Below, piece after piece: positions 25,470 through 49,808 of a DNA stretch of 64,000 bases. The notes beneath the pieces were generated by a model. The model was not told the DNA's origin. It was given only the letters and a program-made list of their open reading frames with translations, and did not search any database. A program made the position numbers and the translations under genes. Each line of letters begins with the position of its first letter. Positions within the stretch are counted from its first letter, which is position 1. The DNA is from an uncultured Eubacteriales bacterium (GTDB lineage Bacteria > Bacillota > Clostridia > Christensenellales > Aristaeellaceae): positions 82,294-146,293 of the forward strand of contig ONJM01000004.1 in NCBI GenBank assembly GCA_900318145.1. Direction: 5' to 3'.

Positions 25470-26634
25470 TATTCTATATTCAACATTAGCTTTGATACAA
25501 AAAGCATTATGGGAAAACGGATCCGCAACGATCTCTTTTAATAATGTCGAAGGTGTTTACGCCATATTAAAAGAACATGCTATTGTTATTCTTCCTGCAA
25601 AGTTGCTTGGTGACATTACAATGCCGGAAAGTTTAAGGACAGAATGGAAAAAACAAATATTACAGAAATTATATTATTATCAGAATATTGTACTTGCTCA
25701 AACTGAGATATTGACTGCATTGGCTAATGAAGGAATACCAGTAGTAGTACTTAAGGGGACATCAGCATCACAGTACTATCCAAATCCCGAGTATCGTACT
25801 ATGGGCGATATTGACTTGCTAGTCAAACAAAAAGATTTTTATCTGGCAGAAAGAACAATCTTATCATGTGGATATTCCACTACAGAATCTGATCACAATA
25901 TTGATCGTCATATTACTCTATCAAAAGGTTTTATACAGATTGAGCTCCATTGGCGTTATGCATCGGAAAACATAATAGAAAACCCTGAAGAGTTTGACAA
26001 AATGCTTTTTGACGATATTCAATTTGGTCAAACAGTGCTTTCTGATCCAATTAATGGTTTGGTTCTTCTGGAACACATCGCACAACATTTAAATAATGGA
26101 ATCGGATTCAGACAAATAATAGACTGGATGATGTATGTAAACAAATGTTTAGATGATAAGATGTGGGATGAAAAATTTATTTTTTTAGCTGAAAATACTG
26201 GTTTGGAAAAATTAGCTATTTATGTGACTCGGATGTGTCAGTTGTTTTTGGGCTTGAAGGAAGAAAATATCACATGGTGTAAATGTGCAGAGGAAGACAC
26301 ATGCAAAAACCTTTTGAATTATATAGCCAATTGTGGTAATTTTGGCCATTCAAGAAGTTCATGGGAATCAGGCGAGATAACAAAATTGCCGTCTCCTTTA
26401 CACCCTATCCTGTTTTTTCGCTATTTACAGAATCGCGGTCAAAGGAGTTGGATTCTATCCCAAAAACATCCTGTACTAAAGCCATTTGCCTGGTGTTATC
26501 AATCATTCAAATATATTAAAATGGCCAAAGAACAGAAAAAAAATGGAATTACAGTGAAAACAGTTTACGATGAAGGAGATTCGAGAAGATGTTTGTTCCA
26601 AAAGGTTGGAATCAGTATTAAGAATGATTCTTAA
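25462..26634 (+). CDS. NTP_transf_5 family nucleotidyltransferase-like protein
   Basis: Protein of 390 aa with a nucleotidyltransferase-fold signature: VVLKGTSASQYYPNPEYRTM, then GDIDLLVKQKDFYLAE, and later QIELHWR. This 'uncharacterised nucleotidyltransferase' family is common in capsule loci and also in RiPP clusters with PqqD, HPr-kinase-like and S26 genes, all of which occur 11-15 kb downstream here. The substrate is unknown. It overlaps the flippase gene by 8 bases. It could belong functionally to either system. Confidence 0.75.
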   Translation: MDSILYSTLALIQKALWENGSATISFNNVEGVYAILKEHAIVILPAKLLGDITMPESLRTEWKKQILQKLYYYQNIVLAQTEILTALANEGIPVVVLKGTSASQYYPNPEYRTMGDIDLLVKQKDFYLAERTILSCGYSTTESDHNIDRHITLSKGFIQIELHWRYASENIIENPEEFDKMLFDDIQFGQTVLSDPINGLVLLEHIAQHLNNGIGFRQIIDWMMYVNKCLDDKMWDEKFIFLAENTGLEKLAIYVTRMCQLFLGLKEENITWCKCAEEDTCKNLLNYIANCGNFGHSRSSWESGEITKLPSPLHPILFFRYLQNRGQRSWILSQKHPVLKPFAWCYQSFKYIKMAKEQKKNGITVKTVYDEGDSRRCLFQKVGISIKNDS

Positions 26635-35276: not shown

Positions 35277-36365
35277 ATGAAGCAGCCAATTGATCTGAAC
35301 AATAAAACAATTCTGGTTACCGGAAGCCCCGGGTTTATCGGAGCAAATCTTGTGCTGCGGCTTCTTTCGGAGATGAAAAGCGGAACGGTCATCAGCTTCG
35401 ACAATATGAACGATTATTATGATCCGAAGCTGAAGGAATACCGTCTGTCCCTTATCGAAAAAGCAGCGGAAACATCTTCAGCTTCACATGTCTTCATCCG
35501 CGGATCAATTGCCGACAAGGCGCTGGTGGATGAACTGTTCGCGAAGTACAAACCGGATATCGTCGTAAACCTGGCCGCGCAGGCGGGTGTACGGTACAGC
35601 ATTGACCATCCGGACGTATATATCGAGAGCAACATTATCGGTTTCTATAACATTCTGGAAGCCTGCCGGCACAGCTATGACGGCGGAGAGACCGGCGTCC
35701 AGCATCTGGTCTATGCTTCCAGCAGCAGCGTATACGGCGGAAACAAAAAGGTGCCGTTCAGCACGGAAGACCGGGTGGACAATCCGGTGAGCCTGTACGC
35801 GGCGACAAAGAAGAGCAACGAGCTGCTGGCGCACAGCTACGCCAAGCTTTACAATATCCCGAGCACAGGACTGCGCTTCTTTACGGTCTACGGACCCGCA
35901 GGTCGGCCGGACATGTTCTATTTCTCAGCGACCCAGAAACTGGTGAGGGGAGAAACGATCTCCATCTTCAACTATGGCAACTGCAGACGGGATTTTACCT
36001 ATATAGACGATATCGTCGAAGGCGTGATCCGGGTCATGCGGGGAGCGCCGGAGAAGGCGACCGGAGAAGACGGGCTGCCGCTGCCGCCATACGCGGTGTA
36101 CAACATCGGCGGCGGACAGCCGGAGAACCTGCTGGACTATGTGCAGACCCTGCAGGAAGAACTGGTACGGGCCGGTGTTTTACCGGAAAACTACGACTTC
36201 GAAGCGCATAAAAAGCTGGTGCCCATGCAGCCGGGAGATGTGCCGGTGACCTACGCGGACAGCGAAGCGCTGGAACGGGATTACGGATTTACCCCGACGA
36301 TCGGGATCCGGGAAGGGCTGCGGGCGTTTGCGGAGTGGTATAAAGGATATTATGGAGGAAAATAA
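35277..36365 (+). CDS. UDP-glucuronate 4-epimerase-like SDR
   Basis: Extended SDR, 362 aa. The NAD loop GSPGFIGANLVLRLL carries a Pro in the usual GxxG spot. SFDNMNDYYDPKLKEYRL is the signature of UDP-glucuronate 4-epimerases, and the catalytic pair is in SLYAATKKSNELLAHSY (Tyr-x3-Lys). LRFFTVYGPAGRPDM and RRDFTYIDDIVEG are also typical. It should interconvert UDP-GlcA and UDP-GalA. Two bases separate it from ugd. Its last codons contain the ribosome site of the PqqD-like gene, joining sugar genes and RiPP genes in one transcript. Confidence 0.88.
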   Translation: MKQPIDLNNKTILVTGSPGFIGANLVLRLLSEMKSGTVISFDNMNDYYDPKLKEYRLSLIEKAAETSSASHVFIRGSIADKALVDELFAKYKPDIVVNLAAQAGVRYSIDHPDVYIESNIIGFYNILEACRHSYDGGETGVQHLVYASSSSVYGGNKKVPFSTEDRVDNPVSLYAATKKSNELLAHSYAKLYNIPSTGLRFFTVYGPAGRPDMFYFSATQKLVRGETISIFNYGNCRRDFTYIDDIVEGVIRVMRGAPEKATGEDGLPLPPYAVYNIGGGQPENLLDYVQTLQEELVRAGVLPENYDFEAHKKLVPMQPGDVPVTYADSEALERDYGFTPTIGIREGLRAFAEWYKGYYGGK

Positions 36366-36366
36366 A

Positions 36367-36633
36367 TTGCGGATTAAGGAAGGATATGTGCTCAAGAAAC
36401 TAGGCACAGGATTTGTGGTGGTGACCATTGGAGAAGCCAGCAAGAACTTTAATGGCTTCATCCGCTTAAATTCTACCGGAGCGTTCATATGGCAGCGGAT
36501 AGAAGCAGGAGATGATACCCGGGAAAAGCTGATTGCGTCAATGAAGTCATATTATACGGACATGGATGAGCAGACTGCCCGGGAAGACCTGGAGGAACTC
36601 CTGAAGGGTGTGGCGTTCGCACTGGAAGAATGA
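36367..36633 (+). CDS. PqqD-like RiPP recognition protein (copy 1)
   Basis: 88 aa with the winged-helix PqqD fold signature: IKEGYVLKKLGTGFVVVTIG, then RLNSTGAFIWQRIE, and a C-terminal helix pair with EEQ-type acids. PqqD-like proteins bind leader peptides of RiPP precursors and hand them to the modifying enzyme. The best start is TTG 36367: GGAGG lies 8 bases upstream, the previous stop is 36363-36365, and the resulting N-terminus (M-R-I-K-E-G) is the family norm. A start at ATG 36352 would place the gene inside the epimerase. Similar proteins lie at 38033 and 49542. Confidence 0.85.
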   Translation: MRIKEGYVLKKLGTGFVVVTIGEASKNFNGFIRLNSTGAFIWQRIEAGDDTREKLIASMKSYYTDMDEQTAREDLEELLKGVAFALEE

Positions 36634-36685
36634 CAGGCGGTTTTTGCCGGAAATTAATGATTTTTGCTACTGATTTGATCTTTAT

Positions 36686-36737
36686 CTATAACTTCTATAA
36701 CTTTTTTCTTGACGGATGCTATTTCTTTTGTTAACAT
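36686..36737 (+). promoter_or_regulatory. sigma-A promoter with tandem 9-bp repeats upstream
   Basis: TTGACG (36709-36714) and TAACAT (36732-36737) are separated by 17 bases. Directly upstream, CTATAACTT occurs twice in tandem (36686-36694 and 36695-36703), five bases before the -35, a placement that suits an activator or response regulator. The promoter is 60 bases before the Cys-rich precursor gene. The 164-base gap after the first PqqD-like gene holds nothing else I can see. Confidence 0.7.
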
Positions 36738-36797
36738 AAAAAAGCTAAATTGATTTTTGTGCAATGGTATGCTTTGGGATTATGGGGAGGTTATCAC

Positions 36798-37070
36798 ATG
36801 AAGAAGTACGAGAAGCCGGAATTTGAAGTGCTGGATTTTAACTTTGCAGAGTTTATGACGGGTTCAGCGGGCACCCCCTGCAGCGGGTATACGGATTCTG
36901 TAGGTCATTACTGTGGATCGTATGTACCGGGGTCGTCGTGTTCATCCTGGACTACGCCGAGCTTTAGCCACGGTTCCTGCAATAACTATAACGGAAAGAA
37001 ATGCTATGGCTATACAGATAGTACGCATAGTTATTGCGCTGAGTATGGAATAAGCTGCGGAAGTTTTTAA
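36798..37070 (+). CDS. candidate RiPP precursor, Cys-rich with duplicated core (90 aa)
   Basis: Small peptide with a leader-like start (MKKYEKPEFEVLDFNFAEFM, then TGS) of the pattern seen in clostridial RiPP precursors, and a core rich in Cys, Gly, Ser, Tyr. Seven cysteines lie at 28, 39, 48, 61, 69, 80 and 87. Two blocks match: C-SGYTDSVGHY-C and C-YGYTDSTHSY-C, each with ten residues between the cysteines. A radical SAM/SPASM enzyme downstream could make thioether crosslinks from them (inference). ATG 36798 has GGGGAGG 7 bases upstream; the frame extends further up without a site. It has its own promoter and terminator. Confidence 0.75.
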   Translation: MKKYEKPEFEVLDFNFAEFMTGSAGTPCSGYTDSVGHYCGSYVPGSSCSSWTTPSFSHGSCNNYNGKKCYGYTDSTHSYCAEYGISCGSF

Positions 37071-37124
37071 TCTTTTCCTTCTATTGTTTTTATACATTCT
37101 GGTGTTATGCAAATACGTTATCCG

Positions 37125-37154
37125 CGCCTTCGGGATAAAACCGAAGGTGTTTTT
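37125..37154 (+). terminator. intrinsic terminator after the Cys-rich precursor
   Basis: CCTTCGG (37127-37133) pairs with CCGAAGG (37141-37147) around a seven-base A-rich loop, followed by TGTTTTT. It sits 55 bases after the precursor stop. The 235 bases after it (to 37390) hold no convincing gene: one open frame of about 60 codons ends at about 37410 but has no start codon with a ribosome site. Confidence 0.75.
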
Positions 37155-37390
37155 ATGCAAAACGTAATATAATTGTAACATGTTGCTTGCTGCTTCGGGG
37201 TGACGTATTCCGATTTTATGCGTATAAAAAGATGAAAGGATTCAAAAGGAAACAAATGAAAGTCAGGACCTGGCGAAACCTTTAAAAGTGCTCAATCAGA
37301 GAGAAAAATATCTTCTTGGAAGGGAGGCGGCAGAAAAAAATACTGGAGTTTTTACAGCCAAATCGAGGATATCATATGCGCAGAAAATCG

Positions 37391-37419
37391 TTGACAGGGA
37401 ACAGGTTTAAGTGTATACT
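37391..37419 (+). promoter_or_regulatory. strong sigma-A promoter for precursor genes
   Basis: TTGACA (37391-37396), 17-base spacer, TATACT (37414-37419): a near-consensus promoter. It would start transcription near 37426, leaving a leader of about 90 bases before the 77-aa precursor gene. Strong dedicated promoters are expected for precursor peptides. Confidence 0.8.
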
Positions 37420-37515
37420 ATAAATGCTATATGCTGATTGCTTTTCATGTGTATAGCAAGTAGACTCAAGTGCAAGCAAATTTTTAAATTTTGATTATGG
37501 ATAGGGGGTTTTTCA

Positions 37516-37749
37516 ATGTCAGATCGTATTGAGCTTAATGAGCAGGAACTGGATCAGGTTGTTGGTGGTGCGTTCCATTATAATTACGCTGAAGATGGAA
37601 GCATGACCTGCCGTGTAGATGGTGCGGATACTTATCATTGTACTGCGAATGCGAAGGATCAAATTTCCGCTTACATTATTACACATAAGGGCTGCACCTT
37701 AAATGACGTGATCAATTATGCTACCCAGAATGGTTATTTCTGGAATTAA
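37516..37749 (+). CDS. candidate precursor peptide with double-glycine leader (77 aa)
   Basis: The start MSDRIELNEQELDQVVGG is a classic acidic leader ending in Gly-Gly at 17-18, as in class II bacteriocin-type peptides. The remainder of 59 residues has cysteines at 32, 42 and 60 and many Tyr, Asn and His residues. The exporter downstream has no C39 peptidase domain, so the S26-type peptidase or a protease elsewhere would have to cleave. GGGGG lies seven bases before ATG 37516, behind a near-consensus promoter. Function unknown; a bacteriocin or signal is possible. Confidence 0.75.
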   Translation: MSDRIELNEQELDQVVGGAFHYNYAEDGSMTCRVDGADTYHCTANAKDQISAYIITHKGCTLNDVINYATQNGYFWN

Positions 37750-37768
37750 AAACAGGGGGTAACGATTT

Positions 37769-37936
37769 ATGAAGCGCAATTATGATGGACTCGAGGCCGT
37801 GAAGATCCAGTTCGCAAACAATGACGTTATTGCCAGCAGTAACTGTGTGTCGATGATTCAGCTTGAACTGGAGAATGGTATCTGCATTAGTGATGAATGG
37901 CAATGGCAGATTACTTATATAGGTGATCAAGGTTAA
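37769..37936 (+). CDS. candidate RiPP precursor (55 aa)
   Basis: Short gene, 19 bases after the previous one, with GGGGG about 10 bases before the ATG. The leader-like start MKRNYDGLEAVKIQFANNDV, then IASS, resembles that of the 90-aa precursor (basic-aromatic start, E-x-V/hydrophobic-x-F, acidic residue, hydrophobics, Ser). The core has two cysteines (26 and 39) and ends EWQWQITYIGDQG. Too small for routine calls. It is followed by a hairpin that separates it from the PqqD-like and radical SAM genes. Confidence 0.65.
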   Translation: MKRNYDGLEAVKIQFANNDVIASSNCVSMIQLELENGICISDEWQWQITYIGDQG

Positions 37937-37958
37937 TTAACATAATAATGTTATGATG

Positions 37959-38001
37959 CATAACAGGGGCCAATAAATGGCACCCTGTTATGTTGTTTTA
38001 C
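37959..38001 (+). terminator. strong hairpin terminator/attenuator between precursors and enzymes
   Basis: CATAACAGGG (37959-37968) pairs perfectly with CCCTGTTATG (37983-37992); three further pairs (GCC with GGC) form after one bulged base, with a seven-base AT loop, followed by a U-rich tail (TTGTTTTA). No separate promoter for the PqqD-like gene is evident, so partial read-through would give many precursor transcripts and few enzyme transcripts (inference). Confidence 0.8.
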
Positions 38002-38032
38002 GAGAGATTTTAATTTGAAAGGATGCATTGTA

Positions 38033-38299
38033 ATGGTTTTAAAATCCGGATTTGAACTGGTGGAAATTGCCGATGAACATATGGTGATACCTGTTGGGGA
38101 TCATGCTGCTTCATTTCAGGGAGTTGTAGCATTGAGCGAAGCTGCCTACTTTTTACTTGGGAATCTGAAAACTCCCAAGACAAGCGATGAACTACTTAAC
38201 CTGCTAATCAATGAGTATGAAGTAGATAAGGATACAGCCAAAAAAGACTTGGATGATTTAGTGAAAAAACTATTAGACCTCGGCATTGTTGAAGAATAA
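38033..38299 (+). CDS. PqqD-like RiPP recognition protein (copy 2)
   Basis: 88 aa with VLKSGFELVEIADEHMVIPV at the N-terminal strand pair, VALSEAAYFLLGNLK, and a C-terminal helical part TSDELLNLLINEYEVDKDTA ending DLGIVEE, all typical of PqqD-like proteins. ATG 38033 has GAAAGGA 9 bases upstream; an upstream in-frame TTG would bury that site. Directly precedes the radical SAM gene, so it most likely presents precursor leaders to it. Confidence 0.85.
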   Translation: MVLKSGFELVEIADEHMVIPVGDHAASFQGVVALSEAAYFLLGNLKTPKTSDELLNLLINEYEVDKDTAKKDLDDLVKKLLDLGIVEE

Positions 38300-38310
38300 A
38301 CAAACGTTCG

Positions 38311-39477
38311 ATGTGTAAACAATACAATAATATGAATAATAAAGAACCTCATTCTCTTGTTGAATTAGCCAAGTGTCTTCAGGAGAAAAATGTATCAGAC
38401 GTAGAGTCTAAACTAATTTTTGTGCGCTTTATTGAAAACAAGGCACGTACTTGTGGCATTCCTCTTACTGGTAAATTTGAATTAACTCCATTATGCAATC
38501 TTGATTGCAAAATGTGTTATGTGCATCTGGACAATTCAAAATACAAAGCGACAAAACTGTTGAAGGTTAATGAGTGGAAGAAATTAATCCATCAGGCATA
38601 TCAGTCCGGAATGAGGAATGCGTCCATTACAGGGGGAGAATGCCTCACTTATCCCGGTTTTGATGAATTATATGTATACTTCCATAGTCTTGGGATAAAG
38701 CCAGGAATACTTTCAAACGGTATTCTGATCGATCAGGAAAAGATTAAATTGTTCTCCGCTTATCCTCCTCAAATAATACAGATTTCACTATACGGAAGCT
38801 CAGAAGATGCATATGAGAAAGTAACCGGACGAAGAGTGTTTCATACGGTTTATAACAATCTGCAGATGATTCGTGATTCCGGAATTCCTGTAAAGATCAC
38901 TATTACACCTAATTCTTTTATGAGGGAGGATATTATACCGCTATTGGAAACTGCAAAAAGCCTTGGGATCCAAACGAATATCAACGCAAACCTGATTCCG
39001 CCCAGAAAAAACACCGGTCGGGAGGTTCATGACCTTACAGTTGATGAATACGTGGAAATATACAAAATCCAAAATATGATGAATAATAAGACTCCTATAG
39101 AAGTGGATCCTCTTGAACTGCCTGATGAAAGCCATGAAGGAATCAAGAGGTTTGGATTGTTATGCGGGGCAGGCAGAAGTTCATTTGGAATAAAATATGA
39201 TGGAAGTATGTGCCCATGCCTTTCATTGGGGGACATATCTGTGGATGTATTGGAATCCGGATTTGAATCAGCATGGAAACAAATCAATAGTATCGCAAAA
39301 AACTATCCCTTACCGGAAGAATGCGGCACATGTGTATATCAAGATCGATGCCTCCTTTGTGTAGCAATGCACAGCAATGCACCTGCTGCAGGTCATTGTG
39401 ATCCAAGAATATGTGAGCGCACAAAGAAACTAATTTCAGCAGGATTTATTCCTGTGCCAGTTCAAAACAAGGATTAA
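38311..39477 (+). CDS. radical SAM/SPASM peptide-modifying enzyme
   Basis: 388 aa. The SAM [4Fe-4S] motif is C62-x3-C66-x2-C69 (CNLDCKMCY), followed by the SITGGECLTYPGF loop and the QISLYGSS strand. The C-terminal SPASM region has cysteines in LLCGAGRSSFG, CPCLSL, CGTCVYQDRCLLC and GHCDPRICER, enough for two auxiliary clusters. SPASM enzymes next to PqqD-like proteins make thioether, C-C or similar crosslinks in peptides. The likely substrates are the Cys-containing peptides at 36798 and 37769. No clear ribosome site; ATG 38332 is an alternative start. Confidence 0.88.
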   Translation: MCKQYNNMNNKEPHSLVELAKCLQEKNVSDVESKLIFVRFIENKARTCGIPLTGKFELTPLCNLDCKMCYVHLDNSKYKATKLLKVNEWKKLIHQAYQSGMRNASITGGECLTYPGFDELYVYFHSLGIKPGILSNGILIDQEKIKLFSAYPPQIIQISLYGSSEDAYEKVTGRRVFHTVYNNLQMIRDSGIPVKITITPNSFMREDIIPLLETAKSLGIQTNINANLIPPRKNTGREVHDLTVDEYVEIYKIQNMMNNKTPIEVDPLELPDESHEGIKRFGLLCGAGRSSFGIKYDGSMCPCLSLGDISVDVLESGFESAWKQINSIAKNYPLPEECGTCVYQDRCLLCVAMHSNAPAAGHCDPRICERTKKLISAGFIPVPVQNKD

Positions 39478-40256
39478 TGGATATGGGTAATACTTGTAAT
39501 GATACTATCTTTTTTTGTAAGATCAGTTTAGCAGGAAAGAAGATAGAAATTGAAAGCAGAAACAAACATGTTCTTGCACTATGTAAAAACTACCTGGATC
39601 AATTTGAGCATCCTGATTTTGTGATTCAGGCATCTCAAAGTGAAATTGACCAGGAAATGCAAAATGTTTACGGAAGTTTCCTTCATAAAAAGACGGCAGA
39701 AAAAGAAATAGCTGCTGAATGTACCGGTATAGAATCAAATGTTATCTACCGTAAGATTGCAGATGCCATGCTGAACTGTGAGACTATTCTCATGCATGGG
39801 GCTGCAATTGCTGTTGATCAAAAGTGCTATGTATTTATTGCTCCTAGCGGCACCGGAAAAACAACACAAATCAATCATTGGCTGGATTGTATTCCGGGCA
39901 CAATAGTAGTGAATGGAGATAAACCGTTGGTCAATGTAAAAACAGAACTTGTTTACGGAACCCCCTGGTGCGGTAAAGAAGGAATGAACAGTAATGCTGC
40001 TGCAAAATTAGCTGGTATCATCATTGTTGAGCGCAGCAAAACAAATTCCATTATACCAATTTCTTTCAAAGAAATGCTGCCATCTCTTTTAAAACAAGTA
40101 TATATTCCAGAAGAAGAAAACAAGAAAATACAGGCCTATAAGCTGATCGGACAGCTTGCAGATGTTTCCTGTTACCGGCTGTTATGCAATATAAACCGAG
40201 AGTCTGCCATAATTGCTTACGATGGGATCAAGAAAAATGAACGAAACAAGGAATAG
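39477..40256 (+). CDS. HPr-kinase-like P-loop protein of RiPP cluster
   Basis: 259 aa. The central HGAAIAVDQKCYVFIAPSGTGKTTQ region has a Walker A loop preceded by the strand pattern of HPr kinase/PEPCK-like proteins, and VVNGDKPLVN follows as the acidic loop. Length is shorter than true HprK, and the regulatory N-terminal domain is missing. Relatives in some lasso-peptide clusters phosphorylate the precursor; elsewhere their role is unknown. The ATG shares a base with the previous stop (TAATG). The end overlaps the peptidase gene. Confidence 0.7.
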   Translation: MDMGNTCNDTIFFCKISLAGKKIEIESRNKHVLALCKNYLDQFEHPDFVIQASQSEIDQEMQNVYGSFLHKKTAEKEIAAECTGIESNVIYRKIADAMLNCETILMHGAAIAVDQKCYVFIAPSGTGKTTQINHWLDCIPGTIVVNGDKPLVNVKTELVYGTPWCGKEGMNSNAAAKLAGIIIVERSKTNSIIPISFKEMLPSLLKQVYIPEEENKKIQAYKLIGQLADVSCYRLLCNINRESAIIAYDGIKKNERNKE

Positions 40257-40722
40257 CGTGAAACCTGAAAACAAAAAGTATACATTTGAAGAATTGCTTA
40301 ATGAACGGGATCATATTGTTTATACCAATGTGGGAAACAGCATGATGCCTCTTCTCCGACAGCGAAAAGATATTATTGAAATAAAGAAAAAGGGATCTGA
40401 ACGATGCAAGAAATATGATGTAGTTTTCTACAAACGCAGGGAAAGGTATCTTTTACACAGGATCATTAAGGTGCTACCAGATGGATATCTTATTGCCGGA
40501 GATCACTGTACGGTCATAGAGCGGGATATAAAAGACAAGGACATTCTTGGCAAAATGACCCGGGTGATCCGGAACGGGAAAAGTATCACGCCGGATAATT
40601 TCTTTTACAAGCTCTATGTCCACCTCTGGTGCGACTGCTATCCGGTCCGGATGTGGATTATCCGGACAAAGCAGCGGACCTGGCGAGTATTGAGCAGAAT
40701 CAAGCATAGGGTGTTGGGATGA
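40237..40722 (+). CDS. S24/S26-type signal-peptidase-like protein
   Basis: 161 aa. GNSMMPLL holds the catalytic Ser35, and YDVVFYKRRERYLLHRIIKV contains His74-Arg where bacterial enzymes have Lys, the arrangement of the archaeal/ER S26B branch; IAGDHCTVIERD is the third block. No obvious membrane anchor, though the C-terminus (FFYKLYVHLWCDCYPVRMWI) is hydrophobic and aromatic. It is the best candidate for removing leaders, because the exporter has no peptidase. I chose ATG 40237, overlapping the previous gene by 20 bases; a longer TTG start is possible. Confidence 0.75.
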   Translation: MNETRNSVKPENKKYTFEELLNERDHIVYTNVGNSMMPLLRQRKDIIEIKKKGSERCKKYDVVFYKRRERYLLHRIIKVLPDGYLIAGDHCTVIERDIKDKDILGKMTRVIRNGKSITPDNFFYKLYVHLWCDCYPVRMWIIRTKQRTWRVLSRIKHRVLG

Positions 40723-42401
40723 ACAGAAGCATTCGGAAAATCAAGGAAATATTCAGCGGCCCTGCTCTGCGGGCGGTTTACCGGTGGAGCAAGCCAGCGC
40801 ACGGATCGATCGCCCTGATTTCTGTGATCGGAATCGTCAGTTCCCTTATGTCCCTGGGGGTTACCCTGGTGACGAAGAACCTGATCGACGGGGCTACGGG
40901 CGGTAAGGAATCCGCGCTGTGGGCCTGGGGGATTACACTGGTTGCGCTGATTGCCGGGAACCGGCTTCTGACGGCCCTGACCGGCTATATCCGGATCAAA
41001 GCATCCGCAACGCTGCAAAAGCATCTGCAGGGAATGGTGACCGAATCCCTGATGAGCAAGGAGTATCCGGCACTGAAACCCTTCCACAGCGGAGAACTGG
41101 TGAGCCGGGTGTTTTCGGATGTCTCTGTGGTGAAAAACGGGGTACTGGGTCTGCTGCCGTCCCTGCTGCAGATTTCGGTTTCCTTTGTCGGCGCTGCGGT
41201 GATCCTGATCACCATGGACTGGCGGTTTGTGCCGGTGCTGATCCTTGCGTCAGTCCTCGGGAGCCTGATGGCGGTAGCTTTCCGTGAACCGATGAAGCGG
41301 CGGCACAAGCGGATGCAGGAGGCGGAAGCAAAGCTGCATGCGTCCACACAGGAAACACTGGAGAATGTTCGGCTGATCAAAGCATCCGTTTCCGAAGAGC
41401 GGGCGCTGGACACCATGGATGAACACCGGGAGCATCTGGTCAGTGAACAGATGCGGAACGGGAAGCTTTCCATCCTGTTCCACAACGGAATGGGAGTCGC
41501 TTTTGACATCTCCTGGCTGCTGTGCAACCTGTGGGGCTGCGTTAAGATCTACCATGGAACGTTTACTTACGGATCCCTGGCGGCGCTGATCCAGCTGATC
41601 GGTCGGATCCAGAGCCCGATTGCCAGCGCGGTGGAGCTGGTCAGCCAGATGTACGGGGTGACGGCCTCAGCAGAACGCTTGCTGGAAGTGGTCGGACTGC
41701 CGGATGAGGAAGCCGGAATCCGGATCGGGTCGTTTGATGAGATCCGGCTGGAGAAGGTCAATTTCCAGTATGAGGACAGCCGGGAAGATGTGCTGGTTGA
41801 TATAAACGGAAGGATCCGGCGCGGGGATTTCGTGGCGCTGACGGGAATTTCCGGCGGTGGAAAGTCAAGCCTGTTCCAGCTGCTCCTGGGAATTTACAAG
41901 CCTGTGAGTGGATCGGTGCTGTTTGTTTCAGACGGAAAAGAGATCCCGGCGGCAAAGGGAACCCGAGGCTTGTTTGCATATGTTCCGCAGGGGAATACCC
42001 TGATGTCCGGGACGCTGCGGGATAATCTGACGATGTTCACGGACGAGGCTTCGGAGGAAGCGATCGCGTCCGCGGTGCACGCGGCGTGCCTGGATGACCT
42101 GGTGGCGGAGATCGGGATGGACGCGAAGATCGGGGAGCGGGGCGTCGGGCTTTCGGAAGGCCAGGCGCAGCGGGTAGCTGTGGCCCGGGCCCTGCTGAGC
42201 GGCGCGCCGATTCTGCTGCTGGACGAAGCGACAAGCGCACTGGACGAGCGGACGGAAGCGAAGCTGCTGGAGAATATCGACGCTATGCGGGACAAGACGG
42301 TGATCATTGTGACGCACCGCAGGGCAGCACTGGCAATCTGCGACTATACACTGCATATCGAGAACGGGCATATGACGCGGATTGACGGCGCGAAGGAATA
42401 A
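40719..42401 (+). CDS. ABC exporter, fused membrane and ATPase domains
   Basis: 560 aa half-transporter. Six membrane helices occupy about residues 20-310. The ATPase domain has Walker A TGISGGGKSSL, the Q-loop, signature LSEGQAQRVAVARALL, Walker B ILLLDEATSALDE and the H-loop IVTHRR. No N-terminal C39 peptidase is present. It probably exports the modified peptides. The start overlaps the peptidase gene by ATGA, so the two are translationally coupled. GC-rich, unlike the AT-leaning radical SAM and HPrK-like genes before it. Confidence 0.88.
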   Translation: MNRSIRKIKEIFSGPALRAVYRWSKPAHGSIALISVIGIVSSLMSLGVTLVTKNLIDGATGGKESALWAWGITLVALIAGNRLLTALTGYIRIKASATLQKHLQGMVTESLMSKEYPALKPFHSGELVSRVFSDVSVVKNGVLGLLPSLLQISVSFVGAAVILITMDWRFVPVLILASVLGSLMAVAFREPMKRRHKRMQEAEAKLHASTQETLENVRLIKASVSEERALDTMDEHREHLVSEQMRNGKLSILFHNGMGVAFDISWLLCNLWGCVKIYHGTFTYGSLAALIQLIGRIQSPIASAVELVSQMYGVTASAERLLEVVGLPDEEAGIRIGSFDEIRLEKVNFQYEDSREDVLVDINGRIRRGDFVALTGISGGGKSSLFQLLLGIYKPVSGSVLFVSDGKEIPAAKGTRGLFAYVPQGNTLMSGTLRDNLTMFTDEASEEAIASAVHAACLDDLVAEIGMDAKIGERGVGLSEGQAQRVAVARALLSGAPILLLDEATSALDERTEAKLLENIDAMRDKTVIIVTHRRAALAICDYTLHIENGHMTRIDGAKE

Positions 42402-43418: not shown

Positions 43419-46409
43419 ATGAGCAGATTATTTCGGAAGGCTTCCAGCAAAAACACATATACCCCTGAACAGCGGAACATTCCGTCTTTTTTAACCGGCA
43501 GGCGCTGGATCTGTGCCATTGCCCTGTGCATGGCTTTTCTTCTTATTCATACCGCGTCCGCGGAGCTGAGTACAAATCTGGGTATTCAGAAAACAATGAA
43601 CCGCAACAACAAGAAGATCGAGAGCGAGACATATACGGACGCTGCCGGCAATCCGGTGACTGCAGACGATAAGGGATACGCGACAGTGAAGTATACCTAT
43701 ACATCCGGGAACCGGATTTCAAAGACGGAATACCTGGATCCTTCCGGAAACCTGACCAACAGCGTGGACGGTGTCGCACAGATCATTTACACCTATGCCG
43801 TAGGCGGACTGGCGAAGACAGAGTACCTGAACGCTGCCGGACAGCCGGTAAACGGGCCGGAAGGATACGCGCTGCAGGAGACCAAGTATACCTACGGGAA
43901 GCATAAAAGTACCTGGGAATATGACGCAAACGGAAATCCGGTGAACCTGCACCGGATTTCGGACCATATGAAAAACAAGCCGGGCCTGATTGTCAAGGAC
44001 GGCTGGTATGATACGGCTGGAAACCCCGCGGAAGGGCCGGAGGGATATTCCTGGGTTGAATACGGATATGCCGGGACAAGGGTTTCCAGGACTGCGTACT
44101 ATGATGTGAATGGAGAACTGTATTTCAACGCCGGAAAGGGATTTGCCATCCAGGAAACGGTCTATGAAAACAGAAACGTCAAGGAAAAGAGATATTACGG
44201 CGATGATGGGGAGCTGACAGCCGGTCCGGAAGGATTTGCCCGCGCGGTATACAGCTACCACCGGAAGGACAACCATTCCACGACGAAGATCATGTACTAC
44301 AACGCGGACGGAAGCCTGTTCTTTACGGAAAAAGGCTACTGCGGAATCGAGCAGGCGCGTACGAAGTGGGGTACTATCTGCGACGAAAGGTACTACATCG
44401 GAGAGAACGAGCAGCGGGGACGCAGCACGGACGGGTACAGCCGGGAGACCCGGACATATAACATGCGGGGAAAACTGTCCGAACAGCGCTTTTATGACGA
44501 AAACAACAAGCTGATGATTCCGGAAACCGTCGGGTATGCCATGCTGAAGAACACCTACAGCGGCAATTACCTGACGCGTACGGAGTATTTCAACGAGAAT
44601 ATAAAGCCGATGATCGGCCCGGACGGATACTACGCGGCTGAAAATAAATATATAGACAGGCTCCTGGTAAAAACTACCTACTACGATACAGATGGAAAAA
44701 CGCTTATAAACGGAAAAGACGGATACGCCCGGATTGAATACGAGCGGGATAAGGATAAGAAGGTCCTGAGCGAAAAGTACTTTGATGCGGAAGGAAACCG
44801 GGTTGTGGTACGGGACAACGCGGATGAAATCCGGTATACATGGGTAAACGGAAACAAGGCCAGCGAAAGTTACTGGGCCAACGGGGCACCTGCCGTGAAC
44901 AGCAAAGGGGCCCATGAGATCCGGTATGAATATACGGGAGCGAACAGGGTCAGCACACAGGTGTTCCTGGATACGGAAGGGAATATTACGACGATTGCGG
45001 ACGGTTATGCCCGGCTGGAAAACCAGTTCAACAGCCAGGGGAAGGTCATGTGCACGTTGTACTACGGCGTGGACGGGGAACTGGTAACGGCTCCGGGAAA
45101 AGAATATGCCTATACACGTACCATCTCCATGCGGGATAAGGACTATCTGGGAGAGGAAGAAGTGGAACCGGAACAGGAAGAGGATCCGGATGAGGAACCC
45201 GCAGAAGTACCGGAAGAGAACGAAGCAGCAGAAGAAGAACCCGGGGAAGAAGAGCCTGAAAACCATGGAGGGGATACGCTGTACGTCGAATACTATGGAA
45301 CAGACGGGCAGCTGATGAACCTTGCCGCCGGGTATGCGGTTATCGTACGGCAGGTGGACGAAAACGGAAAGACGACGGAAGAGGCATATCTGGATAAGGA
45401 CAACAGGAAAGTTCTGACCGCGGACGGAATCCAGGCTGTGCGGTACACCATCGGAGAGGATGGTTTTGCGTCTTCGATTGCCTATTACGGATTGGAAGAC
45501 GAGCCGGTAATCAACACGCGGACAAGGTATCATCGGGTTGACCGGACGTATCTGGACGGAAACCATATAACAAGTGAAACATGGTTTGACACTGAAGGCA
45601 AGCCGATGACAACCGGGAATACGTACTGCCGGATCGAACGGGAGTTTGACGAACGGAAGAATCCGGTTATTGAACGGTATTGCGACGAGAACGGCCTGCA
45701 GATTGCCCGGAGTGAAGGGTATGATGAAATTCATCAGGTATTCAACGAGCAGAACAAAGTAAGCCGGATCGAATACTACCTGGAGGGGCAGCCATTCTGC
45801 CGTCCGGCAGGGTATGCGGGAGTCGAACGGGATTATGATGAACTAGGCCGCGTTATTGCGGAACGTTATTATGGAACAGATGGAGTAAAGGGCCCCGTTA
45901 CGGACGGTTATGACGAGATTCATCAGGCATATAATGAACAGGGTAAGATCAGCCGAATTGATTATTATCTGAACGGAGAACCATTTTATCTGCCGGCGGG
46001 ATACGCAGCAGTGGAGCGGGAATATGATGAAGCAGGACATATAATTACCGAGAGATACTATGACGGAAACGGTGAGAAGGTACTGCTTACAGACGGATAT
46101 CACTTCTATACGCAGGTATACGGCGAAGACGGATATGTGGCATCCCTGGCATACTTTGGGCTGGACGGAGAAGCTGTTGTCAATACCCGTACGGGTTATC
46201 ACAGGCTTGACCGGACGTATCTGGATTCCAGACATGTGACCAGTGAAGCGTGGTTCGGGGTGGAAGATGAACCGATTACGCTGGGAGATACGTTTGTCCG
46301 GGTGGAACGGGAATTTGATGAGCGAGGAAACCCAGGAAAGACGGATATGACGAAATCCGCCAGGTTTATGATGAAGAAAATAGACCCAGCCGGATTGGCT
46401 ACTATCTGA
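43419..46409 (+). CDS. secreted repeat protein, truncated by frameshift (N-terminal 970 aa)
   Basis: Start of what was one long gene reaching 49470. The signal peptide (WICAIALCMAFLLIHTASA) is followed by AELSTNLGIQKTMNRNN and then 32-residue repeats of the same family as the protein at 738. An acidic linker (about residues 575-610, rich in E, P and D) divides an upstream and a downstream repeat block. After base 46331 a 43-base deletion shifts the frame: the last 26 residues (PGKTDMTKSARFMMKK...) are nonsense to the stop at 46409. GAGGAAA precedes ATG 43419. The upstream architecture matches the intact paralogue at 49953 closely. Confidence 0.8.
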   Translation: MSRLFRKASSKNTYTPEQRNIPSFLTGRRWICAIALCMAFLLIHTASAELSTNLGIQKTMNRNNKKIESETYTDAAGNPVTADDKGYATVKYTYTSGNRISKTEYLDPSGNLTNSVDGVAQIIYTYAVGGLAKTEYLNAAGQPVNGPEGYALQETKYTYGKHKSTWEYDANGNPVNLHRISDHMKNKPGLIVKDGWYDTAGNPAEGPEGYSWVEYGYAGTRVSRTAYYDVNGELYFNAGKGFAIQETVYENRNVKEKRYYGDDGELTAGPEGFARAVYSYHRKDNHSTTKIMYYNADGSLFFTEKGYCGIEQARTKWGTICDERYYIGENEQRGRSTDGYSRETRTYNMRGKLSEQRFYDENNKLMIPETVGYAMLKNTYSGNYLTRTEYFNENIKPMIGPDGYYAAENKYIDRLLVKTTYYDTDGKTLINGKDGYARIEYERDKDKKVLSEKYFDAEGNRVVVRDNADEIRYTWVNGNKASESYWANGAPAVNSKGAHEIRYEYTGANRVSTQVFLDTEGNITTIADGYARLENQFNSQGKVMCTLYYGVDGELVTAPGKEYAYTRTISMRDKDYLGEEEVEPEQEEDPDEEPAEVPEENEAAEEEPGEEEPENHGGDTLYVEYYGTDGQLMNLAAGYAVIVRQVDENGKTTEEAYLDKDNRKVLTADGIQAVRYTIGEDGFASSIAYYGLEDEPVINTRTRYHRVDRTYLDGNHITSETWFDTEGKPMTTGNTYCRIEREFDERKNPVIERYCDENGLQIARSEGYDEIHQVFNEQNKVSRIEYYLEGQPFCRPAGYAGVERDYDELGRVIAERYYGTDGVKGPVTDGYDEIHQAYNEQGKISRIDYYLNGEPFYLPAGYAAVEREYDEAGHIITERYYDGNGEKVLLTDGYHFYTQVYGEDGYVASLAYFGLDGEAVVNTRTGYHRLDRTYLDSRHVTSEAWFGVEDEPITLGDTFVRVEREFDERGNPGKTDMTKSARFMMKKIDPAGLATI

Positions 46410-47707
46410 ACGGAGAACCTTTTTACAGGTCTGCCGGATATGCAGCGCTGGAACGGGAATATGACGAAGCAGGACGCATAGTTTCCGAAAGATATTATGA
46501 CGGAAACGGCGAGAAGATACTGGTCACAGACGGATATCATTTCTATACGCAGGTATACGGCGAAGACGGATATGTGGCATCCCTGTCATATTTCGGACTG
46601 GACTCCAGGCATGTGACCAATGAAGCGTGGTTCGGGGTGGAAGATGAACCGATTACGCTGGGAGATACGTTTGTCCGGGTGGAACGGGAATTCGATGAGC
46701 GTGGGAATGCTACGGTACAACGGACATACGGAGCGGACGGAAATCTGATCGCCAGGAAAGACGGATATGACGAAATCCACCAGGAATACAATGAAGAAAA
46801 CAAACCCAGTCGGATTGAATACTATCTGAACGGGGAACCGTACTATATGTCTACGGGATATGCAGCAGTGGAGCGGGAATACGACGAAGCGGGCCGCGTC
46901 AATATAGAACGGTACTATGACGGGAACGGCGGGAAGATGCTGCTTCCGGACGGGTACCATTCCTACAGGCAGATTTACGGTGAAGACGGATATGTGGCAT
47001 CCCTGTCATATTTCGGACTGGAAGGAGAAGCCGTCATCAATACCCGTACGGGTTACCACCGGATTGACCGGACGTATCTGGATTCCAGGCACGTGACCAG
47101 TGAAGCGTGGTTCGGGGTGGAAGATGAACCGATTACGTTGGGAGATACGTTTGTTCGGGTGGAACGGGAATTTGACGAACGAGGAAACATTGCGGTACAG
47201 CGGACATACGGAGCGGACGGGAATCTGATTGCCAGGAAAGATGGGTATGACGAAATCCGCCAGGTTTATGATGAAGAGAACAGGCCCAGCCGGATTGGGT
47301 ACTATCTGAACGGAGAACCGTTTTACAGGTCGGCGGGATACGCAGCAGTGGAGCGGGAATATGACGAAGCAGGGCGCATAATTTCCGAAAGGTATTTTGA
47401 TGGTAACGGCCAGAAGGTACTGCTTACAGACGGATATCACTTCTATACGCAGGTATACGGCGAAGACGGATTTGTTGCATCTCTGGCATACTTCGGACTG
47501 GACGGAGAAGCTGTTATCAATACCCGCACAGGTTACCACCGGATTGACCGGACGTATCTGGACGCCAGGCATGTGACCAGTGAAGCGTGGTTCGGGGTGG
47601 AAGATGAACCGATTACGCTGGGAGATACGTTTGTCCGGGCGGATATGACGAAATCCGCCAGGTTTATGATGAAGAAAACAGGCCTAGCCGGATCGGGTAC
47701 TATCTGA
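46332..47707 (+). pseudogene. repeat-protein fragment 2 (frame-shifted continuation)
   Basis: The repeats resume in a second frame directly after the 43-base deletion and run to 47639. They include two complete 480-base super-repeat units. A 60-base in-frame deletion at 46602 joins SYFGLD to SRHVTNEAWFG, removing 20 residues. At 47639/47640 an 82-base deletion shifts the frame again, and translation runs on as DMTKSARFMMKKTGLAG to a stop at 47707. An ATG at 46574 could in principle start a fragment, but it is internal and without a signal peptide. Confidence 0.7.
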
Positions 47708-47901
47708 ACGGGGAACCGTTTTACAGGTCCACCGGATATGCAGCACTGGAACGGGAATATGACGAAGCAGGACGCATAGTTTCCGAAAGGTATTTTGACG
47801 GGAACGGCGAGAAGATACTGGTCACAGACGGATATCATTTCTATACGCAGGTATACGGCGAAGACGGATATGTGGCATCCCTGTCATATTTCGGACTGGA
47901 C

Positions 47902-48455
47902 CATGGTTTGGCGTGGAGAACGAACCGGTTACGCTGGGAGATACATATGTCCGGGTGGAACGGGAATTCGATGAACGTGGGAATGTTGCGATTCAGCGGA
48001 CATACGGAGCAGACGGAAATCTGATCGCCAGGAAAGACGGATATGACGAAATCCGCCAGAAATACAATGAAGAGAACAAGCCCAGCCGGATTGAATACTA
48101 TCTGAACGGGGAACCGTACTATATGCCGGCGGGATACGCAGCAGTGGAACGGGAATACAACGGAGCTGGCCGTGTCAATGTAGAACGGTACTATGACGGG
48201 AATGGAGCGAAGATGCTGCTGCCGGACGGGTACCATTCCTGCAGGCAGATTTACGGTGAAGACGGATATGTGGCATCCCTGTCATATTTCGGACTGGACG
48301 GAGAATCCGTAATCAATACCCGCACAGGTTACCACAGGATTGACCGGACGTATCTGGACGCCAGGCATGTGACCAGTGAAGCGTGGTTCGGGGTGGAAGA
48401 TGAACCGATTACGCTGGGAGATACGTTTGTCCGGGGCCAGGAAGGACGGGTATGA
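47902..48455 (+). pseudogene. repeat-protein fragment 3
   Basis: Between 47640 and about 47901 the repeats continue in a third frame. A second 82-base deletion near 47902 moves them into this one. The segment holds one nearly full super-repeat (MENEPVTLGDTYVRVEREF ... GVEDEPITLGDTFVRG) and ends by a 71-base deletion at 48435/48436, after which it stops at 48455. No signal peptide or credible ribosome site, so it is unlikely to be a gene by itself. Confidence 0.7.
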
Positions 48456-49470
48456 CGAAATCCGCCAGGTTTATGATGAAGAGAACAGGCCCAGCCGGAT
48501 TGGCTACTATCTGAGAGGAGAACCGTTTTACAGGTCTGCCGGATACGCAGCACTGGGACGGGAATATGACGAAGAAGGCCGTATTGTTACAGAACGGTAC
48601 TATGACGGAAACGGTGAAAAGATGCTGATTCCGGACGGATATCACTTCTATACCCAGGTATATGGAGAAGATGGTTTCGTGGCGTCTCTATCATATTTCG
48701 GACTGGATGGAGAGCCAGTGATCAATACGCGGAGGGATTATCATCGGATTGATCGTACATGGCTGGATAAAGATCATGCAACCAGTGAAGCCTGGTTTGA
48801 TACTGAAGGGAATCCAATGACGAGGGGAAACAGCTACTGCCGGATTGAACGGGAATTCGACGAACGGAAGAATCCGGTGGTGGAACGGTACTGTGACGAA
48901 AACGGGGAAAAGATCGCCCGGAGCGAAGGCTACGATGAGATCCACCAGGCGTTTGATGAGCAGAACAGAGTAAGCAGGATCGAATACTTCCGGGACGGGG
49001 AACCGTTCTATTTGTCATCCGGATACGCGGCGATGGAACGGGAGTATGACGAGGTTGGGAATATCAGCTGCGAACGGTACTTCAACGCGGATAATGGGCC
49101 TGTGCCGTGTACGCGGGGATATGAAGTGTTCCTCCGGGAATACGATGAATTGAAACGGGTGGTTTCGGAAAAGTATACGGATGCTGCCGGAACCCCTGTG
49201 ATGAGCAGCAAGGGCGTATACCAGGTCACCTATGCGTACAACGAGATCGGCAAGGTGACACGGGAAGCTTACTTTGACGAGAACGGTGAACCGATGGCAG
49301 CTATAAACGGATTTATCGCCATTGAACGGAACTGGGACAGCGACGGAAAACTGGTTGATGAGACGGGGATTCCGCCTGAAGAATTGCCGGAAGAGGAGCC
49401 TTCCGATGAACAGCCAGCTGAGAATACAGTGCCTGAAGAACAGGAAGCTGAGGAAGACGCGGCCGGTTGA
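48436..49470 (+). pseudogene. repeat-protein fragment 4 (C-terminal part)
   Basis: Final part of the broken gene, in frame from 48436: ARKDGYDEIRQVYDEEN and so on, through diverged repeats to NGFIAIERNWDSDGKLVDET, and an acidic tail rich in E and P (PEELPEEEPSDEQPAE). The end closely resembles that of the intact paralogue (NGFIAVEREWDEEGNLVSET), which confirms it as the original C-terminus. Removing the five deletions would restore one protein of about 2,130 residues. Confidence 0.7.
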
Positions 49471-49541: not shown

Positions 49542-49808
49542 ATGAGGATTCGTTCGGGGTATATCCTGCAGCAGGTGATGGATATTTATGTCGTGATGGG
49601 TATCGGCAGCGAAGCTTATGTTCCCAACCAGATCATGAGCGTGAATGAGACAGGGGCTTTTCTATGGAGGTTAATTGAGAAGGGGACTGAAAAGCAGGAG
49701 CTTGTGGAGAACCTGGTGAAGGAATACGAGGTTGATGCGGAAACCGCGGAGAAAGATGTTGATGCATTTCTGACCAGATTGCGCGAGAAGGCGCTGATTG
49801 AAGAATGA
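49542..49808 (+). CDS. PqqD-like protein (copy 3)
   Basis: 88 aa: RIRSGYILQQVMDIYVVMGI, then MSVNETGAFLWRLIEKGTEK, and a C-terminal part KEYEVDAETAEKDVDAFLTR ending KALIEE. The same size and pattern as the proteins at 36367 and 38033. AAAGGAG lies 7 bases before ATG 49542; a longer frame reaches back into the repeat gene but lacks a site. No precursor or modifying enzyme is adjacent, so it may serve the cluster at 37-42 kb or act on its own. A strong terminator follows. Confidence 0.82.
   Translation: MRIRSGYILQQVMDIYVVMGIGSEAYVPNQIMSVNETGAFLWRLIEKGTEKQELVENLVKEYEVDAETAEKDVDAFLTRLREKALIEE

Follow-up and report, generated by a model that had tools for sequence, protein, structure and literature searches.

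Linear Polyphosphorylated Peptides (LPPs), reported by Popov et al. in May 2026 (PMC13381572), are the closest described match among ribosomally synthesized and post-translationally modified peptides (RiPPs) to the locus presented here. According to that report, the pathway comprises a SipW-like peptidase (LppS), a RiPP recognition element (RRE; LppB), an HprK-like kinase (LppK), a nucleoside triphosphate (NTP) transferase (LppN), and an MsbA-like exporter (LppD). LppK phosphorylates Ser3 of the core, and the leader, YxxPxVLxHQxIxFETxxS, is cleaved after T and places a Ser at +18 (PMC13381572). LPPs are described there as restricted to Bacillota and often located in capsular loci. The main text of that paper contains no match for radical SAM, rSAM, or SPASM, the terms that denote radical S-adenosylmethionine (rSAM) enzymes of the type encoded in our locus. 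We analyzed a 64,000-nucleotide stretch (the window; positions 82294-146293 of contig C28) of an uncultured Eubacteriales genome (3.2 Mb, 63 contigs, 88% complete; hereafter G000). Positions 36352-42401 of the window encode, all on the + strand, two PqqD-like proteins, three small open reading frames (ORFs A, B, and C), an rSAM/SPASM enzyme, an HprK-like kinase, an S26-like peptidase, and an ATP-binding cassette (ABC) exporter.

The region probably represents two modules of an rSAM-equipped variant of the LPP pathway, situated in a capsule or exopolysaccharide locus, with rSAM enzymes that crosslink Cys residues. Our confidence is high that this is a real RiPP locus with an LPP-type chassis, moderate that the predicted rSAM enzymes crosslink Cys, and modest that a Cys-aromatic link would form in precursor A. 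An earlier note on this DNA had named the same genes around three small ORFs, all of which we confirmed. Its statement that the combination matches none of the known classes exactly is now out of date, as the gene set and the YxxP...S leader type match those in the LPP report (PMC13381572), with an rSAM enzyme added. The genes of the system are as follows.

25462-26634, + strand: NTP_transf_5 nucleotidyltransferase (LppN-like; PF14907, E 2.3e-40)
36352-36633, + strand: PqqD-A, predicted discrete RRE of module 1 (PF05402, E 2.7e-12; alternative TTG start at 36367)
36798-37070, + strand: precursor A, 90 residues, leader MKKYEKPEFEVLDFNFAEFMTGS followed by seven C-x-x-aromatic motifs (ORF supported by a ribosome-binding site and by homologs)
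37516-37749, + strand: ORF B, 77 residues, double-glycine leader (VVGG) and a conserved, possibly folded beta-beta-beta-alpha-alpha region
37769-37936, + strand: precursor C, 55 residues, leader MKRNYDGLEAVKIQFANNDVIAS and a two-Cys core (leader model, E 6.6e-6)
38033-38299, + strand: PqqD-B, predicted discrete RRE of module 2 (PF05402, E 4.8e-12)
38311-39477, + strand: rSAM/SPASM enzyme, 388 residues (PF04055, E 2.4e-20; SPASM, E 2.4e-4)
39477-40256, + strand: HprK-like kinase (LppK-like; family profile, conserved residues, predicted fold)
40237-40722, + strand: SipW/SEC11-type S26 peptidase, putative LppS-like leader peptidase (family profile, conserved residues)
40719-42401, + strand: MsbA/LppD-like ABC exporter lacking a C39 peptidase domain (ABC_membrane, E 1.7e-28; ABC_tran, E 5.4e-23)

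The RiPP assignment is carried by the leader. Precursors A and C have a common leader type and ORF B a different one; the two leader types of the earlier note stand, with A and C now grouped together and ORF B set apart. We built a hidden Markov model (HMM) of the leader without the two window peptides and counted an ORF as near when an rSAM gene lay no more than 1.5 kb away. At E<=0.01, the HMM retrieved 84 near ORFs in 65 of 90 loci, none of 8126 farther ORFs, and no shuffled ORF; at E<=0.1, the counts were 92 near and one far. With the window and 12 seed-tied loci left out, the HMM still found matches at E<=0.01 in 52 of 77 loci (61 near ORFs) and hit no far ORF. Precursor C was recognized with an E value of 6.6e-6, while the match to precursor A is weak (E 0.06), and the case for A rests on its own homologs. 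The leader, PqqD, HprK, S26, and rSAM profiles matched none of 20 control regions, drawn from three congeners, at E<=1e-3. The recurrence of the leader beside related rSAM genes gives good support to the RiPP system proposed in the earlier note, and small peptides are indeed conserved near this enzyme set in other genomes.

In total, the leader is common to 91 peptides in 71 loci (E<=0.1). An aromatic-x-x-P motif stands near its start in 84 of these; of the seven misses, one (L064) has the motif slightly later. In 88 of the 91, a Ser follows the leader aromatic at a distance of 17-21 residues (+19 in 58, +20 in 22), compared with a baseline of 18% (leader) and 37% (core) for five-residue stretches elsewhere. 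In chosen pairs of related precursors, leader identity exceeds core identity (1.00 vs 0.47 for L057/L070, 1.00 vs 0.35 for L060/L062, and 1.00 vs 0.32 for L076/L097), with a weaker contrast in some, such as L034/L040 (0.96 vs 0.77). A constant leader followed by a changing core is the pattern expected for RiPP precursors. No NCBIfam model scored above its cut-off for the three small window ORFs or ten related peptides, and a PHROGs search returned nothing useful.

Five LPP gene types are present here: an S26 peptidase with its Ser and His, discrete RREs (the two PqqD proteins), an HprK-like kinase, an MsbA-like transporter, and an NTP transferase. Searched singly, the HprK-like and S26-like window proteins gave no specific Pfam match, and we turned to their families. 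Hpr_kinase_C was detected in 5 of 24 members of the HprK-like family at E<=0.01, and the P-loop residues S124, G127, and K128, along with H107 and D148, are invariant in 24 sequences. The kinase model has a pLDDT of 91.5, and Foldseek aligned it with PEPCK (E 1e-6) and HprK/P (1kkl, E 3e-4), at modest TM-scores of 0.3-0.5. At the same threshold, the S26-like family matched Peptidase_S24 in 15 and Peptidase_S26 in 2 of 27 members, and its profile is closest to SEC11A/C in the Protein Data Bank (PDB; SEC11A 7p2p, E 6.6e-7). S35, H74-R75, and G88-D89 are invariant in 27 sequences, and a further acidic column follows, with D in 21 and E in 6; among the candidate catalytic residues, invariance is confined to the Ser, the His, and the GD-motif Asp. 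The catalytic residues of LppS are given as S29, H68, and D93 (PMC13381572), and the Ser-His spacing of the window protein, 39 residues, equals that of LppS S29-H68. The putative catalytic Ser and His agree with LppS; for the third catalytic residue, D89 and the further acidic column are both candidates.

The S26 profile also yielded 22 matches in 61 congener genomes, and for 13 of them a strong rSAM match lies no more than about 6 kb away. Four others, with open frames of 178 residues, are probably housekeeping genes, and one of the remaining five (in G028) adjoins a weak rSAM match.

Among solved RREs, the PqqD profile matched LppB (9x8z) with an E value of 1.6e-4, and the MsbA model is among the best scores for the ABC exporter, below its cut-off. 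The PF14907 nucleotidyltransferase gene (25462-26634) is part of the polysaccharide locus, roughly 10 kb upstream and within the 12 kb used in the LPP paper, and we infer that it belongs to the RiPP system. Compared with the LPP leader motif, precursor A reads YEKP with its Ser at +19 and precursor C reads YDGL, without the Pro, with its Ser at +18; the HQ and FET parts of the motif are absent, by eye, from both. As its position matches that of the LPP phospho-Ser (+18), we propose that the conserved Ser at +18 to +20 is the kinase target, and given the HprK-like kinase, Ser phosphorylation of the precursors is likely. The presence of an rSAM enzyme suggests more than phosphorylation.

The system is also linked to capsule genes. 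The polysaccharide locus lies upstream of the RiPP genes, and its last gene (35277-36365, by eye a sugar-nucleotide epimerase) shares 14 overlapping bases with PqqD-A. Among the 32 system loci that span 18 kb or more, a capsule marker is present in 22 and PF14907 in 17, versus 1 and 0 of the 20 controls (p 7e-6 and 3e-5, Fisher test), where the markers were seeded from the window and from L124 and the loci span many taxa and are not independent. With PF14907 left out of the markers, the number falls to 13 of the 32.

ORF B was examined for its own relatives, and homologs were found in ten other loci: L021, L023, L024, L027, L029, L126, L167 (weak, E 1e-4), L168, L173, and L174. Five of these (L126, L167, L168, L173, and L174) have an rSAM enzyme of a 46x-residue type. 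ORF B forms a separate double-glycine-leader family, and we lean towards an accessory role rather than a substrate. The rival view, ORF B as a genuine second RiPP precursor, is a minority possibility that still deserves weight, as its leader is of the bacteriocin type (below cut-off) and a leader-type peptide adjoins it in nine of the ten other loci, all but L167. The region after the double glycine is nevertheless conserved and has predicted secondary structure (mean AlphaFold pLDDT 70; block means of 74-83 from residue 21 across six sequences), the exporter lacks a C39 peptidase, and ORF B occurs in only 6 of 90 rSAM loci. Its distribution is narrow: counting its own genome, it was detected in 2 of the 248 genomes searched in the order and in 1 of 291 in the class. 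The best PDB match has an E value of 1.5, with none at E<=0.001. In four congeners (L126, L168, L173, and L174), the 46x-residue rSAM gene is followed by Cys peptide(s), B, PqqD, HprK, S26, and ABC, in that order; some of these Cys peptides carry seven or more Cys.

The rSAM enzyme of the window retains the CxxxCxxC motif and the SPASM Cys residues over 22 sequences; C285, C303, and C338 are invariant and C341, C347, C350, and C368 are conserved in at least 90%. Its best NCBIfam scores are to NirJ2 (82.9 bits), AlbA, AhbD, and then SkfB, all far below cut-off; with 72.6 of 850 bits for AlbA and 64.7 of 300 for SkfB, the sactisynthase cut-offs are not reached. The closest PDB chain is SkfB (6efn, E 3.6e-18). 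No NCBIfam cut-off was reached by the window enzyme (best 25 of 69 families), six relatives, or three rSAM enzymes of the second type, and a known sacti- or ranthipeptide family was discarded on that ground.

From the best 80 of 94 relatives in a search with the rSAM protein, we obtained 79 distinct loci on genome contigs, with further loci in congeners. Within 6 kb of the rSAM gene, PqqD was found in 47 loci, S26 in 48, HprK in 57, and ABC in 27 (many contigs are short), and PqqD, S26, and HprK occur together in 33. A leader-type peptide lies within 1.5 kb in 60 of the 79. Where 6 kb are available on both sides (28 loci), the counts are PqqD 17, S26 21, HprK 25, ABC 17, and leader-type peptide 22. 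In the tree, the window enzyme groups with those of L021-L024 (support 100/95), and the relatives cover Bacillota, Bacteroidota, and Actinomycetota, together with single Chloroflexota and Synergistota bins that may be binning errors. Two near-identical rSAM genes (L074 and L098) are found in bins named Lachnospiraceae and Anaerolineaceae, beside precursors with identical leaders and different cores; this likeness reflects either recent transfer or a binning error.

The core of precursor A is strikingly regular, each of its seven Cys having an aromatic residue at +3. All 37 core Cys of seven homologous A-type peptides show this CxxAro spacing (Tyr, Phe, or Trp at +3), a count reached in none of 10000 shuffles; the peptides are related and A is internally repeated, so the seven sequences are not independent. 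Aromatics make up 15% of A-type cores, and other offsets give at most 8 of 36-37. An eighth A-type peptide (G016) has 5 of 6. In G023 (L124, 11800-12365), after an S26 gene, a ninth has leader and core in different frames and 7 of 7 CxxAro after FMAGS. Homologs of A are found in G001, G002, G016, and G023, along with an orphan copy in its own genome; among 150 genomes, A-type peptides occur in these and G000, with a doubtful match containing a stop in G591. The orphan copy (L123, 12112-12390; G000, C28:78111, upstream of the window) has 6 of 6 CxxAro and no maturase seen adjoining, and similar orphans occur twice in G023 (both in L125) and in G016 (L177).

Across the precursors with the common leader, Cys was counted in the 88 peptides with a cleavage-like motif, three of the 91 being dropped for want of one. 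Every core contains Cys (one in 10, two in 61, three in 13, and four in 4), while 82 of the 88 leaders have none. In non-redundant two-Cys cores, 6-15 residues separate the Cys in 54 of 58. As no acceptor residue stands out around these Cys, this group may instead form a disulfide and undergo a different rSAM reaction. A broader alternative is that the products are ordinary LPP-type phosphopeptides whose Cys form disulfides after export, while the rSAM enzyme catalyzes a reaction that needs no fixed acceptor, such as epimerization. The LPP-like chassis and the two-Cys spacing without a clearly enriched acceptor fit this alternative. We nonetheless consider it unlikely, since SkfB and AlbA are among the nearest SPASM enzymes, the rSAM enzymes assigned to module A lie near maturases of Cys-rich peptides, and A shows the CxxAro regularity.

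The A-type peptides probably have an rSAM partner of their own. A 7.8 kb contig of the same genome (contig C39, not to be confused with the peptidase family) carries, in order, rSAM (513 residues), HprK, PqqD, and S26, with the contig end soon after. In G002 (L122), the order is rSAM (485 residues), HprK, PqqD, A, and A'. The close subclade of the 513-residue enzyme (E below 1e-200) was found in G000, G002, and G023 of 120 genomes, all three with A-type peptides, where the G002 match includes one TGA, which is, by coordinates, the stop of its ORF. For the A-type rSAM enzymes of L122 and contig C39, the best NCBIfam models are TIGR04463, CefB, Clo7bot, geopeptide, and PapB maturases, all below cut-off; the contig C39 enzyme scores 90.8 of 340 bits against PapB. 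Its closest PDB chain is 5wgg (CteB). The CxxAro spacing is unlike the motifs of the ranthipeptide and Cys-rich-peptide families. Tentatively, and with some doubt, the A-type rSAM enzyme may join every Cys of A to the aromatic at +3, forming up to seven consecutive four-residue rings. If true, this would constitute a separate thioether (or Cys-aryl) class of RiPPs: a phosphorylated peptide made on an LPP chassis and exported at the capsule. Streptosactin, with its Cys31-Gly34 S-C-alpha ring, offers a precedent for an i to i+3 link, to another acceptor (PMC8172795).

These relationships bear on how the region is divided. PqqD-A is 60% identical to the PqqD of contig C39 and 61% identical to the PqqD beside the A-type peptides of L122, but only 26% identical to PqqD-B, which shares 49% and 54% with the PqqD proteins of L021 and L023. 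The intergenic features are listed below.

36709-36737, + strand: weak promoter-like site ahead of precursor A (matches 9 of 12 positions, with TG, in a consensus scan that gives 20 such sites in the region vs 11.6 in shuffles)
37124-37150, + strand: terminator-like hairpin with a T-run between precursor A and ORF B (pattern scan and RNA fold; the fold of 37108-37160 has z -3.0, with 2 of 200 shuffles equally good; the scan gives 6 patterns in the region, this one included, vs 5.4 in shuffles)
37391-37419, + strand: promoter-like sequence ahead of ORF B, TTGACA-17-TATACT (agrees with the consensus at 11 of 12 positions)
37958-37993, + strand: stable hairpin in the gap between precursor C and PqqD-B, with TTGTTTT after it, a possible partial terminator (the fold of 37945-38000 has -23.8 kcal/mol and z -4.4, with 0 of 200 shuffles equally good; absent from the terminator pattern scan)

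On the strength of the terminator-like hairpin between A and B and of the PqqD kinship, the stretch appears to split into two modules: module 1, PqqD-A with A, and module 2, B-C-PqqD-B-rSAM-HprK-S26-ABC. Module 1 has no adjoining rSAM gene of its type and is probably served in trans by the contig C39 cluster, given the PqqD kinship, the co-occurrence of the 513-residue rSAM with A-type peptides, and the hairpin. The earlier note had described one system with three precursors; A instead seems to form part of a second module, and B may serve as a folded accessory protein and not as a substrate. A single system, in which one rSAM enzyme and its partners mature all three peptides, would account for genes that all lie within 6 kb on one strand and for the leader type common to A and C. 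It is improbable, however, in view of the hairpin, the low identity between PqqD proteins that are each nearest to the partner of a different rSAM type, and the different leader and predicted fold of ORF B.

A lasso peptide cluster, decayed or atypical, is very improbable and was rejected: PqqD, HprK-like, and nucleotidyltransferase genes also accompany lasso clusters (PMC7533575), and 7 of 28 lasso leaders (28 of 29 distinct leaders scored) reach 8 bits with our leader HMM vs 2 of 1400 shuffles, but PF13471 (B2) has no match in the genome (88% complete), no macrolactam cyclase is found among the proteins of 36352-42401, the PF00733 matches of the genome lie elsewhere (at C28:7108-7974, more than 110 kb away, with a weak match on C29), an S26 peptidase stands in place of B2, and neither A nor C shows a Gly1...Asp8/9 pattern by eye. 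The earlier observation that lasso parts recur without cyclase and B2 protease therefore holds. Among the relatives, 4 of 41 have PF13471 above cut-off.

For the rSAM-equipped LPP variant that we favor, gene content, homology, conservation of catalytic residues, the conserved leader and Ser, the variable core, and the CxxAro spacing are established here, and a course of maturation can be proposed. Judged by homology, the discrete PqqD proteins would bind the Y-x-x-P portion of the leader (Y-x-x-L in C), the HprK-like kinase would phosphorylate the conserved Ser 18-20 residues past the leader aromatic, the SipW-like peptidase would remove the leader near that Ser, and the ABC protein would export the product. 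Judged by pattern, the rSAM/SPASM enzyme would modify the core Cys, most likely to thioether rings. Module 2 would process precursor C, whereas the contig C39 cluster would act on precursor A, joining Cys to the aromatic at i+3. The PF14907 nucleotidyltransferase may attach a further group.

Several observations weigh against this interpretation. The LPP paper describes no rSAM enzyme, and the intermediate that it reports, in Bacillota, is linear and phosphorylated (PMC13381572). Invariant D89 of the S26 peptidase sits 15 residues after the His, whereas D93 of LppS sits 25 after, and LppB scores lowest of four solved RREs, below TbiB1, TfuB1, and 9x90, the lasso RREs being higher. Precursor C is a true miss for the Pro of YxxP, and the two-Cys cores lack a preferred acceptor. 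The partner genes are incomplete across the 79 loci, as counted above, and 19 of them have no leader-type peptide within 1.5 kb; these are mostly distant relatives, yet L022, from the clade of the window enzyme, is included. The assignment of A to contig C39 rests on kinship, with a contig of 7.8 kb.

Elsewhere in the window, a third PqqD protein (49545-49808; PF05402, E 6.8e-21) lies between large repeat proteins, is 34% identical to PqqD-A and 30% to PqqD-B, and has no adjacent precursor in the ORF list. Repeats resembling 'YYDADGNPV' make up the large proteins at 738-6680, 43419-49470, and 49953-52928. No Pfam family matched the protein at 43419-46409 at E<=0.001, and the stretch 46409-49470 reads as several adjoining or overlapping frames.

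Set against described systems, the locus shares PqqD, an HprK-like kinase, a nucleotidyltransferase, an ABC exporter, and a [Y/W]xxP leader with paeninodin-type lasso clusters as presented in PMC7533575 and the LPP paper, but has an rSAM enzyme and S26 peptidase instead of cyclase and B2 protease, and no lasso core by eye. With the sactipeptide maturases SkfB and AlbA, it shares core Cys and rSAM similarity (SkfB is the closest structure, and both are among the best window rSAM models), but the scores remain below curated cut-offs and the leader, separate RRE, kinase, and peptidase differ. The ranthipeptide and Cys-rich-peptide maturases (TIGR04463, CefB, PapB, and 5wgg) score best for the A-type rSAM enzymes, which differ in falling below every cut-off. 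The gene set of the window is not described in the portions available of PMC10352776, PMC4289311, and PMC8172795, and a term search of PMC10885120 gave no match for S26, signal peptidase, S24, SipW, or HPr. A literature search found no rSAM enzyme in an LPP-like cluster, with supplements and most subscription papers lying beyond its reach.

The closest agreement is with LPP, with which the locus has in common the SipW-like peptidase, discrete RRE, HprK-like kinase, NTP transferase, MsbA-like exporter, capsule setting, and a YxxP...S leader before a variable core. It differs in the added rSAM/SPASM enzyme, the Cys-containing cores, the Pro-less precursor C, the extra double-glycine-leader ORF B in some loci, and relatives that extend to Bacteroidota, Actinomycetota, and single bins of other phyla. 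Where LPP was described as a linear, phosphorylated Bacillota pathway, these loci suggest a larger rSAM-equipped branch across several phyla, in gut and rumen bacteria, with leaders that stay constant and cores that vary. Through its CxxAro pattern, precursor A provides a concrete, testable chemical prediction, and the fixed Ser makes the kinase target testable as well. The rSAM/SPASM enzyme and the relatives outside Bacillota are new relative to the LPP paper; the basic toolkit was already described in 2026, and the predicted crosslinking enzyme and the regular CxxAro peptide look new.

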